This document shows positions 3,295-62,702 of a DNA stretch of 64,000 bases, one piece after another. A model generated the notes under the pieces. The model made no database searches. It saw only the letters and a program-made list of their open reading frames with translations, and had not been told where the DNA came from. The DNA is taken from NCBI RefSeq assembly GCF_022761015.1, contig NZ_JAKWJQ010000001.1:620001-684000 (forward strand), in the 5' to 3' direction. Each line of letters opens with the position of its first letter. Positions within the stretch are counted from its first letter, which is position 1. The position numbers were made by a program, and so were the translations under genes. The DNA comes from Humibacter sp. RRB41. Its GTDB lineage: Bacteria > Actinomycetota > Actinomycetes > Actinomycetales > Microbacteriaceae.

Positions 3295-4368
3295 ATGCCG
3301 GCTCGGGTGACCATCAAGGACGTCGCGCTCGCGGCCGGGGTCAGCAAAGGGGCGGCATCCAACGCGCTCAACGATCGGCCAGGTGTCTCTGAGACGACCC
3401 GCCAGCGGGTCAAAGACGCGGCCGAGCGACTCGGATGGTCACCCAACCGGCTTGCGCAGGCGCTGTCGGGGTCGCGGGGTGATTCGGTCGGATGGGCGAT
3501 CGTGCGTACCGCCAAGACCCCCGCGATCGATCCGTATTTCACCGAGCTGTTCTCGGGCATCGAACTGGAACTCGAGACCACGGACCTCTCGCTCGTCACC
3601 AAGCTCGTCGCCGATCGTGAGGCGGAGGCCGTGCTCTACCGGCGCTGGGCATCCGAGCGGCGCGTGGCCGGGGTGCTCATCTCCGACATCGATGTCGACG
3701 AGCCACGGTTCGAGCAACTCCGCGAACTCGAGACGCCGTTCGTGGCCTTTCGGAGCACGACCGCGGCCGAAGGCGCCATGCCAGCGGAGTTGCGCGTGAC
3801 GTCGGTGCCCGAGGGGTTGCAGGTTCCGACGGTGTGGTTCCAGGAGCTCACGACGGTCGCGACTCTGCTCGATCACGCGCGCACCTTCGGCCATCGTCGC
3901 ATCGCGTGGGTGAGCGGCGACCCGTCGAAGGCGGCCGTCGTGCTGCGGGAGCGGGCCGTCGACAGGTGGTCCGGAGACAACGGCGTCGCCGTGCGAACCG
4001 TGTACACGGACTACAGCCCGAGTGCCGGTGCGCAGCGCGCCGTGGAGCTTCTGCGCTCGGACTCCCCGCCGACGTTCATCGTCTTCGACAGCGACATCAT
4101 GGCGCTCGCCGGCCTGTCGGCCCTCAACGCCTCGGGCTATGGCGTGCCGCGTGACGTCTCCGTCGCGTCGTTCATCGATTCGACGCTCTGCGAGGTGGCG
4201 CTTCCGCCAGTCACGGCACTGGCACATCCGGTCGTCGAATACGGCAGGGCCTTCACCCGTCGGTTGATCCAGCAGATCGGCGACGGCACGGGCACGGATG
4301 CCTGGCTCGAGCCGCCCACGCTGGTGAAGCGCGCGAGCGTGGGCCCGGCGCCCGCGCCCGCGCGGTAG
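3295..4368 (+). CDS. LacI family transcriptional regulator
   Basis: A 357-residue repressor. Residues about 4-50 (VTIKDVALAAGVSKGAASNALNDRPGVS) form the LacI helix-turn-helix and hinge start; the rest is a periplasmic-binding-like sugar-sensing domain with FIVFDSDIMALAGLSAL and DVSVASFID typical of the C-terminal subdomain. ATG 3295 is preferred because a TAGATT box at 3282-3287 places the transcription start at or next to it. The AACCGGTT pair directly downstream has the CG-centred form of LacI-family operators, so this protein probably controls the binding-protein and GMC genes. The inducer is likely a sugar or glycoside. Confidence 0.93.
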   Translation: MPARVTIKDVALAAGVSKGAASNALNDRPGVSETTRQRVKDAAERLGWSPNRLAQALSGSRGDSVGWAIVRTAKTPAIDPYFTELFSGIELELETTDLSLVTKLVADREAEAVLYRRWASERRVAGVLISDIDVDEPRFEQLRELETPFVAFRSTTAAEGAMPAELRVTSVPEGLQVPTVWFQELTTVATLLDHARTFGHRRIAWVSGDPSKAAVVLRERAVDRWSGDNGVAVRTVYTDYSPSAGAQRAVELLRSDSPPTFIVFDSDIMALAGLSALNASGYGVPRDVSVASFIDSTLCEVALPPVTALAHPVVEYGRAFTRRLIQQIGDGTGTDAWLEPPTLVKRASVGPAPAPAR

Positions 4369-4377
4369 CGGTCAGTG

Positions 4378-4418
4378 AACCGGTTCTGCCCTTGACTACT
4401 AAACCGGTTCTGTAATAC
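4378..4418 (+). promoter_or_regulatory. Promoter with two AACCGGTT LacI-type operators
   Basis: The 11-mer AACCGGTTCTG occurs at 4378-4388 and again at 4402-4412, each with the palindrome AACCGGTT. Between them is TTGACT (4392-4397), and TAATAC follows at 4413-4418 with a 15-bp spacer. Operators that bracket the -35 and abut the -10 would block polymerase. The 24-bp spacing puts them on roughly the same helical face. The site lies just after the LacI gene and before the sugar-binding lipoprotein. Confidence 0.7.
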
Positions 4419-4526
4419 CGTCGGCCGAGTCCGGCAAGGTCGTTCATGGGCGGCAGCGGGAGGCAGGACGGCAGCACCGACGTCACATTCAAGCGCGAGA
4501 CATCGCCTCAAACGAAGGAGTTTGAC

Positions 4527-5840
4527 ATGCAGACCGGCGCATCCAGCAGCGTGAGCAGACGAGGGTTCCTGGCGGGCAGCGCCGCCGTGGCAGTGAGCCT
4601 CGGGCTGAGCGCGTGCGCGGCATCCGGGAGCGGATCCTCCAGCACCGGGGGCCCCATCACGTTCTGGGACATGGTGTGGGGAACGGGCACGACCTACACC
4701 GCCAAGGCGCGTTCCATCGTGAACGGTTACCAGCCGAAGGGCCGCGACCGGGGAATCAAGTACCAGTCGATTCCGTGGGCGAACTGGAACCAGACGTTCA
4801 CGTCGGCGGCGGCGTCGAAGACCACTCCGGCCGTCGCATCCGGTGCCGCGTTCCTGCCGTTCTACTTCTTGGAGCAGGGCTCGGTGGTTGCCGCCGACGA
4901 CCTGGTCAAGACGCTCGACAAGAACGGCGCGAACGACTTTCTTCCCGGCCTGCTCCAGCAGATGAAGACCAGCAAGGGCTACGCGGCGCTGCCGTGGTCG
5001 ATGGATCTTCGTGTGCTCTGGGTGCGCAAGTCGCTGCTCGAGAAAGCGGGCGCGGACTTCCCCACCGACTGGGATTCCTTCATCAGGGCAGGCGAGGCCC
5101 TGCAGAAGAAGGGGCAAGTCGGCCTCGGCCTCGCCGCCGGGAGCACCACGACGGATGCCCAGCACACGGTGTCCGCGTTGATGATCAACAACGGCGGCGG
5201 CATGTTCGACGAGAACGGCAACCTCGACTGCGTGACAGACCGCAACATCGAGACGCTGGATTTTCTGAACGAGTGCGTGAAGAAGGGCATCATCGACCCG
5301 CCCTCGCTCAGCTACACGAACACCAACCTCGCGACCGACTGGACGGACGGCCACGTGGCGATGGGCTTCAACCAGACCGGGCTCGACAAGACCTTCCGCC
5401 CGGATCAGCAGTCGGACCTCGAAGTGATCGCCCCCTTGAAGGGACCGCACGGCGACACTGGAACCGTGTATTACATCAACCCGTTGATGATGTTCGACAC
5501 GAGTCCGTCGCAGGAGTCGTCGGAGGCCTTTCTCGCCTGGTACCTCGACCAGATCCACCTGTTCTGGACCAGCGGCGTCGAGACCGACCTGCCGGTGAAG
5601 AAGAGCATCACGAAGCTGCCGGTGATCCAGAACAACAAGAACCTCGTGAAGTCGGTGAACGAGTGGCAGCCGATCGGCAAGACCATCGGTGCTCGCACCG
5701 ATCACGCCTTCGCCGCACTGAACACCGTGGACGGCGGCACTGCCAGCGCCACGTTCGTGCAACGCATCGTACAGGGGGAGCAGTCGTCCAAGCAGATTCT
5801 GCAGAACCTGCAGATGTCGCTCGAGAAAGTCATCAAGTAG
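4527..5840 (+). CDS. Extracellular sugar-binding lipoprotein (ABC family 1)
   Basis: A 437-residue solute-binding protein. The N-terminus has a twin-arginine-like SRRGFLAG (RR at 11-12), a hydrophobic stretch and the lipobox LSAC (Cys30), predicting a lipoprotein on the outer face of the membrane. The body resembles family-1 sugar-binding proteins (ITFWDMVWGTG, ALPWSMDLRVLWVRKSLLEKAG, VAMGFNQTGL). ATG 4527 follows GAAGGAG at 4515-4521 by 5 bases. No ABC permease or ATPase gene is present within the window, so its transporter must be encoded elsewhere or it serves another role. The LacI operators upstream make it sugar-regulated. Confidence 0.85.
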   Translation: MQTGASSSVSRRGFLAGSAAVAVSLGLSACAASGSGSSSTGGPITFWDMVWGTGTTYTAKARSIVNGYQPKGRDRGIKYQSIPWANWNQTFTSAAASKTTPAVASGAAFLPFYFLEQGSVVAADDLVKTLDKNGANDFLPGLLQQMKTSKGYAALPWSMDLRVLWVRKSLLEKAGADFPTDWDSFIRAGEALQKKGQVGLGLAAGSTTTDAQHTVSALMINNGGGMFDENGNLDCVTDRNIETLDFLNECVKKGIIDPPSLSYTNTNLATDWTDGHVAMGFNQTGLDKTFRPDQQSDLEVIAPLKGPHGDTGTVYYINPLMMFDTSPSQESSEAFLAWYLDQIHLFWTSGVETDLPVKKSITKLPVIQNNKNLVKSVNEWQPIGKTIGARTDHAFAALNTVDGGTASATFVQRIVQGEQSSKQILQNLQMSLEKVIK

Positions 5841-59059: not shown

Positions 59060-60610
<1,551 letters not shown>

Positions 60611-60659
60611 CCAGCCCGCAGCCCCCGCCACCGCCCCGCCACCGCCCGCCGGTCTCACC

Positions 60660-60687
60660 CGGTCCCGCCCGGCCCAAGGTGGGACCG
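60660..60687. terminator. Hairpin after lysS
   Basis: CGGTCCC (60660-60666) and GGGACCG (60681-60687) make a perfect 7-bp stem with a 14-base loop, 50 bp after the lysS stop. No T-tract follows. It lies between a C-rich tract (60621-60652) and the left palindromic element, and could be a lysS terminator or part of that element. Confidence 0.35.
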
Positions 60688-60696
60688 TGGCGGAAA

Positions 60697-60748
60697 ACAG
60701 GCAGGAAAGCGCATACCACGCGGGAACAGGCACGATCCGCCTGTTTCC
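60697..60748 (+). repeat. Palindromic element, left copy (inverted relative to 61746-61797)
   Basis: A 52-bp element beginning ACAGGCAGGAAAGCGCATAC and ending GCCTGTTTCC. Its inner hairpin is GGGAACAGGC (60722-60731), loop ACGATCC, GCCTGTTTCC (60739-60748), ten pairs with one G-T. It matches the reverse complement of 61746-61797 at 47 of 52 positions. A C-rich tract (60621-60652) lies on its outer side. The element lies 122 bp before the AbiEi/DUF559 gene. Confidence 0.88.
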
Positions 60749-60869
60749 GCGTGAACTGCCTGCATCGCGGTCGTGGTGTCTCCGCGTCCACAGCCTGCAT
60801 CGCACAGAGTCCTCCACCATCTGGCACTGATCAGGATGCCTGCCACGCGCACCCGGACACGATGAGCAC

Positions 60870-61718
60870 ATGGCCCGCGTCGCCAGTACACTCGTCCGCC
60901 TACAAGGGCTCGCAACGCGAGCCCAGCTGAGGCAGAACGGATGCACCGACCACGAGATCCGTGATTATGTCGCGGCAGGATTCGCCAAGACGGTGCGACG
61001 CTCCTGGCTCGCGGCGCCCACTGCCCGACGTGAGGCGGTCCGTGCTGTAGAACTGGGCGGCATTCTCGGCGGTGAAAGCGCACTCCGCAGCATGGGCGTG
61101 TGGGTCTCGCAGAACACCGGTCTCTGCGTCGCTGCACCCAGGACTGCGAGCAGGCTCCCTCCGCTTCGGGTTGGCGAGTATCGGGTGCATCCGCACACGT
61201 TCGTCTGGCCCGAAGGCATCCGCTGGCGAATGGGTGTTGTGGATGCCCTCGTGGTGCTCGCCGGCAGAGTGAGCTATCAGCACCTCGTCGCTTCGATCGA
61301 CAGCGCGCTGCACAAGGGCGTGCTTTCCGCCCGCCAACTCGACGAACTCTTCGCACGGCTGCCCGCGCGCCTGCGGTTCGCGCGAGCGCTCGTCGAGCCC
61401 CTCAGCGCATCCGGAATCGAGACCATATTCCGGCTCGCAGCCATCGCGGTGGGCTGGCACGTGCAGGTGCAGGTCGACATTCCGGGCATCGGCCTGGTCG
61501 ATCACCTCATCAACGGCTGGCTGATCGTTGAGACCGACGGTGACGAGTTCCATTCGTCCAGGCAGCAGCGAGCGAAGGATCGCTCTCGGGATGCGGCAGC
61601 CGTTCGCAAGGGCATGAAATCCCATCGGTTCGGGTACGAGCAGATCATGAACGATCTCGACGGATGCATCGAGGTTGTGGCGGACATCCTGGCCGCTGGC
61701 CGTCCTGGTCGCTCCTGA
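60870..61718 (+). CDS. AbiEi-like N-terminal domain fused to DUF559 (Vsr-like) endonuclease domain
   Basis: A 282-residue protein. Residues 1-60 (LVRLQGLATRAQLRQNGCTD, then VRRSWLAAP) form the winged-helix domain of type IV antitoxin AbiEi-like proteins. The C-terminal part (about 190-275) is DUF559, a PD-(D/E)XK-like fold related to very-short-patch-repair nucleases: GIGLVDHLINGWLIVETDGD and EFHSSRQQRAKDRSRDAA give D...ExDG..FH and DR.RD. No toxin partner is adjacent. ATG 60870 precedes the domain directly. It is enclosed by inverted copies of a palindromic element, which suggests a mobile cassette. Its biological role is unknown. Confidence 0.82.
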   Translation: MARVASTLVRLQGLATRAQLRQNGCTDHEIRDYVAAGFAKTVRRSWLAAPTARREAVRAVELGGILGGESALRSMGVWVSQNTGLCVAAPRTASRLPPLRVGEYRVHPHTFVWPEGIRWRMGVVDALVVLAGRVSYQHLVASIDSALHKGVLSARQLDELFARLPARLRFARALVEPLSASGIETIFRLAAIAVGWHVQVQVDIPGIGLVDHLINGWLIVETDGDEFHSSRQQRAKDRSRDAAAVRKGMKSHRFGYEQIMNDLDGCIEVVADILAAGRPGRS

Positions 61719-61745
61719 CGCCGGTCGACCACAGGCAAATCGAGT

Positions 61746-61797
61746 GGGGACAGGCAGATCGTGCCTGTCCCCGCGAGGTATGCGCTTTCCTGCCTGT
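61746..61797 (-). repeat. Palindromic element, right copy (inverted relative to 60697-60748)
   Basis: Read on the minus strand it begins ACAGGCAGGAAAGCGCATAC, as the left copy does, and ends GCCTGTCCCC. The inner hairpin is perfect: GGGGACAGGC (61746-61755), 7-base loop, GCCTGTCCCC (61763-61772). Relative to the left copy an A-T pair is replaced by G-C, and a G-T by G-C, so pairing is maintained. It begins 28 bp after the AbiEi/DUF559 stop and has a G-rich tract on its outer side. Confidence 0.88.
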
Positions 61798-61834
61798 TCT
61801 CGCGATGGGCGGCGGGGGCGAGGGCGGGCGAGGC

Positions 61835-61855
61835 GGGGGCGGGGGCGGGGGCGGG
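61835..61855 (+). other. G-quadruplex-forming tract
   Basis: Four G-runs (5, 5, 5 and 3) separated by single C residues at 61835-61839, 61841-61845, 61847-61851 and 61853-61855. Single-base loops make this a strong G-quadruplex candidate on the plus strand. It lies between the right palindromic element and the stop of the CtaG-like gene; the mirror-image side of the cassette has a C-rich tract. Confidence 0.7.
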
Positions 61856-61892
61856 CTGGCTGAGCGGAATGCGGGGAGGGCTCGGGGTAGCG

Positions 61893-62702
61893 CTAGTGCT
61901 CCTGGTACCGCCGCAGGTGCTCCTCTGTGAGGGCATCCATCTGCTCGTCGGTGAGCTCGTCCATCTTCTTGGCCTCGCGCTTGTCGGTGTGCATCCACCG
62001 CACGAACAGGATGATCAGCACCGGAATGTCCGCGACCTCGGCGATGAACCACAGAAAATCGCCGGACAGATGCTGGTCGTGCAGCTGTGAGGGGAACCAC
62101 GCGGGCAGCGTGCCCACGATCGCGTGGGCGTGGTCGAGCACCGACTCGTTGAGGCGCAGCAGGATGCCCGGAATGGCATCCAGCACCAGCTCCATGAACG
62201 CGAGCATGAACTCCGCGGTGATGAAGAGGCTCGTGCGCAGCAGTCCGCTGTCGGTGATCGGCAGCACCATCAGGGTGCCGACGAGTGGAACGCCGAGCGT
62301 GATCGCCGCCTCCCATCCCGGGTCGAGCCGCAGCGCCGCGGCGAACGGCGTGAGAAACAGGCAGAACCCGATCAGGGCGACGATCGGCGCGAACATGGCG
62401 TTGCCCATCAGGCGTACCGGCCACGATTTCAGCACGCGATCCAGCACACGTCCGGGAGCTCCGGACAGCGCGGCGCGAGCAAGGCTCACCGGCCGTCCGA
62501 GAGAGATAAGGCCAGGCACGACGAACAGCAGGAACGCGATCCGCGTCGTGAACGCCCAGCGCAGATCGACGCTCCAGGTGCCGAGGAACCCGAACTCGAT
62601 CCACGCGTACGAGCCGAGCCCGAGCACGTAGAACGCGATCGTCGGCCACGCCTTCCATTCCACGCCGTTGCGCTTCGCCAGATACAGGCCTGCCCCGTAC
62701 AC
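61893..62702 (-). CDS. CtaG-like membrane protein (caa3 oxidase assembly family), 5' end probably damaged
   Basis: A 269-residue polytopic protein of the caa3-type CtaG family, involved in copper insertion or assembly of cytochrome c oxidase. It has about seven helices and a charged C-terminus (HTDKREAKKMDELTDEQMDA). The first standard start (GTG 62702) lies inside the first helix: the same frame continues upstream as PEPATPDVLTFLTTFSFNPF and AFAAIVIAAAV, clearly coding, back to a TGA at 62814-62816 without any ATG, GTG or TTG. A GTG at 62810-62812 is in another frame and would fit the true start if one base were gained or lost near 62785-62808. Confidence 0.75.
   Translation of the reverse strand: MYGAGLYLAKRNGVEWKAWPTIAFYVLGLGSYAWIEFGFLGTWSVDLRWAFTTRIAFLLFVVPGLISLGRPVSLARAALSGAPGRVLDRVLKSWPVRLMGNAMFAPIVALIGFCLFLTPFAAALRLDPGWEAAITLGVPLVGTLMVLPITDSGLLRTSLFITAEFMLAFMELVLDAIPGILLRLNESVLDHAHAIVGTLPAWFPSQLHDQHLSGDFLWFIAEVADIPVLIILFVRWMHTDKREAKKMDELTDEQMDALTEEHLRRYQEH

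Follow-up and report, generated by a model that had tools for sequence, protein, structure and literature searches.

The closest described counterparts of the system reported here are the RAYT transposases and their palindromic partners. RAYTs are described as single-copy, vertically inherited enzymes that act on REPINs (PMC8049555); GTAG repeats or long inverted repeats border their genes, and repetitive extragenic palindromic (REP) sequences of the CGTC type occur without a known enzyme (PMC3733652). The enzyme, TnpA-REP, is a HuH enzyme (PMC8266576), and REP copies exceed 100 per genome (PMC2817692). We describe herein a locus of Humibacter sp. RRB41, located in a stretch of 64,000 nucleotides (hereafter, the window), where a gene for an AbiEi/DUF559-type protein stands between two inverted copies of a nested palindrome. 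Its features point to a previously unrecognised partnership between an enzyme family and a genomic repeat, one that probably works in the manner of RAYT/REPIN while being built on an unrelated nuclease. At the level of sequence, this partnership is seen as flanking, dispersal, a shared architecture, joint lineage-specific change of the cores, partial tracking of the cores and gene-less states.

As in RAYT/REPIN, a vertically inherited resident gene is flanked by its own palindromic element, non-autonomous copies are dispersed outside genes, and elements persist in genomes that lack the gene (PMC8049555, PMC3733652, PMC8266576). However, RAYT is a HuH tyrosine (Y1) transposase, whereas the window protein is AbiEi-like and EDxHD-like, with no Y1 given by Pfam or Foldseek. 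REP sequences carry a GTAG tetranucleotide, which is absent from the consensus of 29 elements, where a GATCGCGCTCTC-like box is found instead. The element is, moreover, a nested double palindrome of 77 bp, and its copies number about 10-30 per genome, compared with the more than 100 of REP (PMC2817692). Because enzyme and tag differ, the present system would work like RAYT/REPIN but is no member of it.

Other known systems share single traits with the locus. The homing endonuclease I-Bth0305I (3r3p), of the EDxHD family (for the name, see PMC6083498), resembles the window protein in fold and residue pattern by profile and by Foldseek, and its break-driven spread offers a natural analogy. Unlike the genes of homing endonucleases, the window gene is free-standing and intergenic between two intact-looking genes, with no intron or intein seen (the intron search being Rfam on 60500-62000), and the dispersed unit is a noncoding palindrome rather than a gene. 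The N-terminal part weakly resembles AbiEi of the AbiE type IV toxin-antitoxin system, but no gene for an AbiEii-like (nucleotidyltransferase) toxin is adjacent; the neighbours are a tRNA-synt_2 (lysS) gene and a Caa3_CtaG gene. VsrA of Caulobacter has a DUF559/Vsr-like nuclease domain; in contrast, its links are to a cytosine methyltransferase and to mismatch repair, and the stem "palindrom" is absent from the main text of its description (PMC12907096). Among titles and abstract openings of the openly accessible literature, outside which most subscription journals and preprints fall, none ties DUF559 or AbiEi proteins to dispersed palindromes.

At the window locus, 60697-60748 matches 61746-61797, once reverse-complemented, at 47 of 52 positions. 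Local alignment of the flanks gives a score of 140, whereas 500 mononucleotide shuffles reach at most 38. Two inverted 52-bp elements around the gene, as claimed in the preliminary description, are therefore present, and so are the compensatory changes that it reported in the inner stem (A-T to G-C and G-T to G-C). Its length for the element was too short. The full element spans about 77 bp, and an outer stem (ACAGGCA ... TGCCTG) encloses the 10-bp hairpin. It is laid out as an outer stem, a 5' internal box, an inner hairpin with a 5-nucleotide loop and a short 3' bulge, and the ACAGGCA core is present in four arms, two per direction. Folded as single-stranded DNA, both window copies beat dinucleotide shuffles (z -3.6 and -4.2). 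Of the 53 crude gene calls in the window, the DUF559/AbiEi gene alone has a strong repeat common to its 400-bp flanks (score 99; the next, 31). Outside the elements, a C-rich tract (60611-60690) and a G-rich tract (61803-61860) are symmetric in the window's genome (G000) and not in the pairs of its relatives. The outward symmetry described earlier thus exists in G000 without being part of the element; the tracts appear to be local low-complexity sequence, because the pair alignments of G001, G003, G004 and G029 are confined, or nearly so, to the element.

The same arrangement recurs in relatives. A covariance model (R1) built from 10 G000 element copies was run over 59 genomes with stricter filters, so that its counts are lower bounds. 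At least seven matches each were found in G000, in the other genomes of the genus (G001-G004) and in G029, which belongs to a different genus; G005 gave one weak match. An inverted pair surrounds the lysS-linked orthologue in all five genomes of the genus and in G029, with a pair spacing of 1.03-1.12 kb. In G001, G003, G004 and G029 the two copies lie 1.04-1.09 kb apart beside lysS with a relative of the window protein inside, and in G002 the elements lie at C10:10163 (+) and 11284 (-), with gene and lysS likewise. The orthologous proteins are 53-61% identical to the window protein. The architecture of the flanking pairs is kept and the core is species-specific: ACAGGCA in G000, ACCGGAG in G001, ACAGCAG in G002 and G004, ACAGGAC/ACATGCC in G003, and ACAGGCC in G029. 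The two copies within a genome are 79-83% identical (five genomes), compared with a mean of 66% and a maximum of 78% between genomes (40 comparisons).

The gene adjoins lysS in eight genomes of three genera, which suggests that it is mostly inherited in place. It points away from lysS in all five genomes of the genus and in G029. Two close orthologues from one genus, L081 (G206) and L082 (G089), lie by lysS but are reversed, pointing towards it, so at least one flip or re-insertion would have taken place between genera. The "cassette" of the preliminary description accordingly holds in part: the gene stays by lysS in all eight genomes, but in two of them its orientation is reversed. The inverted flanking repeats and the reversed gene in 2/8 lysS-linked genomes could also be read as an invertible cassette, in which recombination between the repeats flips the gene. 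We consider this most improbable: orientation relative to lysS is uniform in the genus and G029, several paralogues carry direct rather than inverted copies, and copies away from any such gene would be left unexplained. In the Agrococcus loci, lysS is absent within 6 kb of the gene, and L055 and L056 have no flank pair within 500 bp.

Covariation supports the drawn structure, to an extent that depends on the sample. With the 10 G000 copies alone, the stem covariation to which the preliminary description had pointed is moderate: eight pairs have double changes, a number reached by 67 of 500 shuffles, and the score is 0.142, reached by 1 of 500. It becomes strong once relatives are added. In an alignment of 29 diverse elements (A4), double changes occur at 25 of 28 base pairs and 84.0% of cells are paired; the covariation score is 0.460 versus 0.166 when shuffled, 0 of 500 shuffles reach the observed value on each of the five measures, and slid controls give 0.066-0.134. 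Permutation tests in this study are uncorrected for relatedness, and kinship inflates the covariation shuffles. The outer-left core does not base-pair with the inner-left one; even so, the two match at 7.14 of 8 positions, versus 5.51 when shuffled (0/5000). Since the cores of the arms change jointly without mutual pairing, a single protein reading all arms explains them better than RNA folding does. A functional RNA, or a transcription terminator or other 3'-end structure under RNA-structure selection, would account for the strong covariation, the internal-loop box and the mostly intergenic position with few divergent sites. Nonetheless, folding of an RNA does not require outer and inner stems to share a core and change together, and the flank repeat is tied to one gene family far above controls (see below). 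Across nine element loci, moreover, no Rfam family reaching gathering score covered the element, and even at E 1 none lay over the elements in 60500-62000; we judge this alternative quite improbable. The other Rfam matches were a 16S fragment at the end of a contig and, inside the gene, a sub-threshold lysM-Actino match (E 0.58).

The association extends to paralogues of the gene. A protein profile (A2) was made from seven orthologues, two of whose rows look identical, and was searched against 299 genomes of the family. It matched 139 of these at E 1e-40 or better, with 18 strong matches (at least 273 bits) followed by many paralogues at 209 bits or less. Flanks of 400 bp were compared for any common repeat, inverted or direct, at a cut-off score of 44. 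The cut-off was reached in 18 of 40 paralogues, in 10 of 17 close orthologues and in 0 of 192 control genes (control maximum 36). Reruns gave 0/189, 0/185 and 0/174 controls at 400, 450 and 600 bp, and controls with noncoding flanks, which number just 13, were positive in 0/13. The orthologues were 17 of the 18, L086 being omitted at a contig edge. The paralogues were hand-picked before their flanks were seen, roughly in match-list order below the 30 fetched and one per genome, with some listed genomes skipped; the controls were crude open reading frames (ORFs) of at least 150 amino acids (aa) in the same 40 regions. In a second family of the order, 13 of 28 genes share a flank repeat (450-bp flanks; 28 of 30 fetched loci, with L256 and L264 omitted as partial matches). 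Many of the flank repeats are long palindromes whose sequence differs by lineage; some are nested, and a CAGG core occurs in several. Outside the genus, G032, G129, G247 and G076 each contain several near-full-length copies of the queried element away from a DUF559 gene (hereafter, solos). A query of the G247 type gave nothing strong in G199 and G288, which is no fair test of dispersal there, as their flank sequences differ. The G010-type element was found as two flank copies and one partial extra copy.

BLAST located 10 places in G000 at E ~0.001 or better, including the two window copies, and R1 located 16 distinct places at E <= 1, i.e. 14 solos. Around the 49 solos of G000, G001, G003 and G004, gene calls were crude ORF calls; 42 solos are clear of such calls and 7 overlap one, and the genes on either side are tandem for 20, convergent for 15, divergent for 5 and unassigned for 9. 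A DUF559 gene lies within 1.5 kb of 0/49 (one solo had just 0.6 kb on one side). The preliminary description had regarded an element spread through the genome apart from DUF559 genes as speaking against its proposal, and literally this is what the solos display; empty sites nonetheless exist. A RAYT-like system predicts one resident gene and a dispersed non-autonomous population, so that solos without a DUF559 gene are to be expected.

AbiEi domains are DNA-binding regulators, and the elements might be operators or other regulatory sites of the AbiEi-like part, with the protein regulating itself and a regulon and the nuclease-like domain being secondary. The PADLOC AbiEi match, the AbiEi antitoxin that comes first, weakly, in Foldseek, and the copy upstream of the gene all agree with this, and a single recognition specificity would also give joint arm change and in-place rewriting. 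On the other hand, a second copy lies downstream in 5/5 genomes of the genus and in G029, the 49 solos lie, by the crude calls, mostly between tandem or convergent genes and in 5 cases between divergent ones, and sites that are empty in four relatives are not regulon-like. The operator explanation is thus unlikely, though it is the least unlikely of those set against the nuclease-palindrome partnership.

In support of that partnership, the core of the solos partly follows that of the resident pair. The resident core is defined as the core motif of the pair flanking the lysS-linked gene in the same genome; it is carried by 13 of 14 solos in G000, by 5 of 5 tabulated and 7 more seen in G029, and by 3 of 4 tabulated in G002. 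The core table covers 14/14 G000 solos, 18 of 19 distinct G001 solo places and part of those of G002, G003, G004 and G029. By overall similarity, the genome's own pair is nearest for 23 of 58 solos, versus a permutation maximum of 21 in 5000, a classification that is blurred by conserved non-core parts and in which the two G002 references were the same upstream element shifted by one base.

Orthologous sites suggest how the cores come to differ. For eight G000 solos, the flanking sequences were searched for in G001-G004, and five sites were comparable in all four relatives. The L006 and L009 sites are empty in 4/4, and the L193 site has no element-like sequence in 4/4. The L008 site is empty in G002, whereas G001, G003 and G004 each carry an element there with a core of their own resident type. 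The L005 site holds an element or a damaged element in 4/4, with a resident core in G002 and G003. In a second comparison of solo loci, all 13 distinct pairs with both flanks matching share orientation. At one such site, G000 L197 (ACAGGCA) and G001 L205 (ACCGG) both have resident cores; so do G001 L207 (ACCGGAG) and G004 L042 (ACAGCA) at another, and G003 L029 and G002 L266 at a third. Position and orientation are held and cores differ, which suggests that old sites are kept and their cores rewritten, often but not always to the resident motif.

Gene-less states were sought with a second model (R2), made from the 29 elements and run over the family genomes with stricter filters and at most 15 places scored per genome, so that counts are again lower bounds. 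At least 11 places were found in 7 of 299 genomes (G000-G004, G029 and G128), and six others gave one weak match each. Six of the seven rich genomes carry a close orthologue; G128 shows none in the profile search and keeps at least 14 dispersed elements, 13 full-length ones forming 19-26 of the 28 pairs. The lysS site of G128 lacks the gene; downstream of lysS, where its congener has the gene, lies a half-element remnant (L304) that ends inside the inner hairpin. In G236, a congener of G128 outside the 13 genomes that R2 matched, the lysS site has neither gene nor element. Empty sites, on which the preliminary description had laid weight, are thus present at L006, L009 and L008 (in G002) and at lysS in G236.

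Short dispersed noncoding palindromes are classically moved by transposases. The elements could accordingly be miniature inverted-repeat transposable element (MITE)-like or REP-like repeats moved by an unrelated transposase, with the DUF559 gene as a passenger or tolerated neighbour. G128 agrees with this, and DUF559 genes were the one enzyme family against which the elements were tracked. Yet many paralogues show the association too, with element sequences that differ by lineage, and the flanking pair has a species-specific core that the solos share in part. The finding of 0/49 solos beside a DUF559 gene further argues that the gene is not simply carried along. We regard a foreign transposase as unlikely, to much the same degree as operator sites.

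A nuclease partnership could operate as follows. One resident gene, mostly inherited in place, would sit between two copies of its own nested palindrome with a 6-8 bp core in four arms. The protein would bind the core in the arms and nick or cut the element, possibly in an extruded hairpin or cruciform form; repair of the break from another copy would spread the element and convert old copies in place to the resident motif. Gene conversion would account for the in-place rewriting and for the likeness of the two flanking copies, while insertion at empty sites would require an additional step. On this model the DUF559/AbiEi protein would mobilise the elements. The likeness to REP/RAYT, and the recognition of palindromes by DUF559/AbiEi proteins put forward in the preliminary description, gain from the association, from motif tracking between species and from the absence states, all of which are comparisons of sequence.

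Several points weigh against this interpretation. Resident cores are few among the tabulated solos of G001 (5/18), G003 (5/12) and G004 (2/5), and in these genomes several element subfamilies coexist with one orthologue, which is a real limit. R1, being made from G000 copies, favours ACAGGCA. At orthologous sites, the L005 core is non-resident in G001 and G004, as are those of G003 L210 (ACAGC, at the site of L197 and L205), G001 L039, which keeps ACAGGCA, and G004 L054. A target-site duplication was sought by eye in the empty-site alignments, which are too diverged to define any, and movement of the elements was never seen. The flank repeat is below the cut-off in 22/40 paralogues, 7/17 close orthologues and 15/28 genes of the second family, and the G145 and G010 elements show little or no dispersal. 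No inverted flank pair surrounds either of the two other DUF559 genes of G000 (scores 33 and 34; shuffle maxima 29 and 31). Elements persist in G128 without the gene, and 12 of the 18 close-orthologue genomes are missing from the 13 that R2 matched; other flank elements occur in some of the 12, and in G089, G090 and G299 none was seen by the flank test. On the protein side, AbiEi profiles match just 1-2 of the 7 members, and the AbiEi antitoxin 6y8q, first in Foldseek by E-value, aligns weakly (template modelling (TM) score 0.17-0.29, root-mean-square deviation >=13 A). The AlphaFold model, from three sequences, has a mean predicted local distance difference test (pLDDT) of 58, with residues 41-120 at 27-40, and no Foldseek match of it has an E below 0.001.

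The nuclease assignment rests on the C-terminal domain, which is predicted to be of the EDxHD type, like Vsr and homing endonucleases. Among Pfam matches of the window protein at E up to 1, MTES_1575 scores 25.2 bits, under its cut-off of 38.2, and DUF559 scores 21.1, just over 20.6; MTES_1575 matches 7/7 and DUF559 5/7 of the orthologue members. The PADLOC AbiEi profile matches residues 13-161 at E 1.8e-6. In a PDB profile search the top match is 3r3p, at E 0.012, and Foldseek places the same structure third (probability 1.00, TM 0.75 on target, E 0.04), a likeness at the level of fold. In the predicted model, residues 181-280 form blocks at pLDDT 64-88, save one at 55. The invariant residues E184, D211, E221-x-D223, H228 and D237, among which we take the catalytic ones to lie, are compatible with an active EDxHD enzyme. 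The features of the locus are collected in Table 1.

Table 1. Positions of the gene, the two palindromic elements and the neighbouring marker gene in the window
Feature	Position	Strand	Remarks
AbiEi/DUF559-type protein, 282 aa: weakly AbiEi-like N-terminal part and EDxHD nuclease-like C-terminal domain	60870..61718	+	
Predicted nuclease domain, residues 184-276	61419..61697	+	Invariant residues (see text) from 7-row alignment
Left palindromic element, 77 bp (outer stem, 5' internal box, inner hairpin, 3' bulge)	60692..60768	+	R1 match C1:680688-680772
Outer-left core motif ACAGGCA, left element	60697..60703	+	
5' internal-loop box, left element	60705..60716	+	GAAAGCGCATAC here; consensus of 29 elements GATCGCGCTCTC
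Inner hairpin, left element	60717..60753	+	Arms ACAGGCA and GCCTGT
Outer-right core arm, left element	60757..60763	+	TGCCTGC
Right palindromic element, 77 bp, inverted relative to left copy	61726..61802	-	R1 match C1:681722-681806
Inner hairpin, right element	61741..61777	-	
Class II (D, K and N) tRNA synthetase gene, taken as lysS	59060..60610	+	Conserved neighbour marking the orthologous locus; outside the system

To our knowledge, most DUF559/AbiEi-type genes have no assigned role. It is possible, though we lean slightly against it, that a broad class of the AbiEi/DUF559 nucleases in these bacteria drive, as residents, palindrome populations private to them, each reading its own four-armed element; a change of specificity would lead to break-and-repair rewriting of old elements in place, and gene and repeats would co-evolve as a selfish or domesticated pair. 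If a link to dispersed palindromes were proven, many such genes would gain a function, and the RAYT/REPIN way of life, if truly shared, would have arisen again with an unrelated enzyme. The naturally varied cores between species would provide a ready-made specificity code, and in-place rewriting at orthologous sites, if true, would be a natural case of nuclease-driven concerted evolution.

Some further observations concern single loci. A third DUF559 gene of G000 (L068, G000:C1:812000-822000, gene ~4422-5261) is without a flank pair and lies beside a long gene that presumably is rpoB-like. Another paralogue (L069, G000:C2:3000-13000, gene ~4022-4741) has a direct flank repeat of a different, CTCGGAGATC-type sequence (score 56), and may have its own element family. 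At L073 (G029), because the elements are palindromic, the inner hairpin of the upstream copy also aligns directly with 35 bp of the downstream one, downstream of the gene (score 60). The flank palindromes of L135 and L136, in the window's own family, and of L244 and L248, in the second family, share an inner ACACGCC motif, which may stem from an old common element. Finally, L095 (G129) and L134 (G032) display a second architecture of ~110 bp with ends like GTTCATAAAACAGGAG, which flanks a paralogue in a different genus and is dispersed there.

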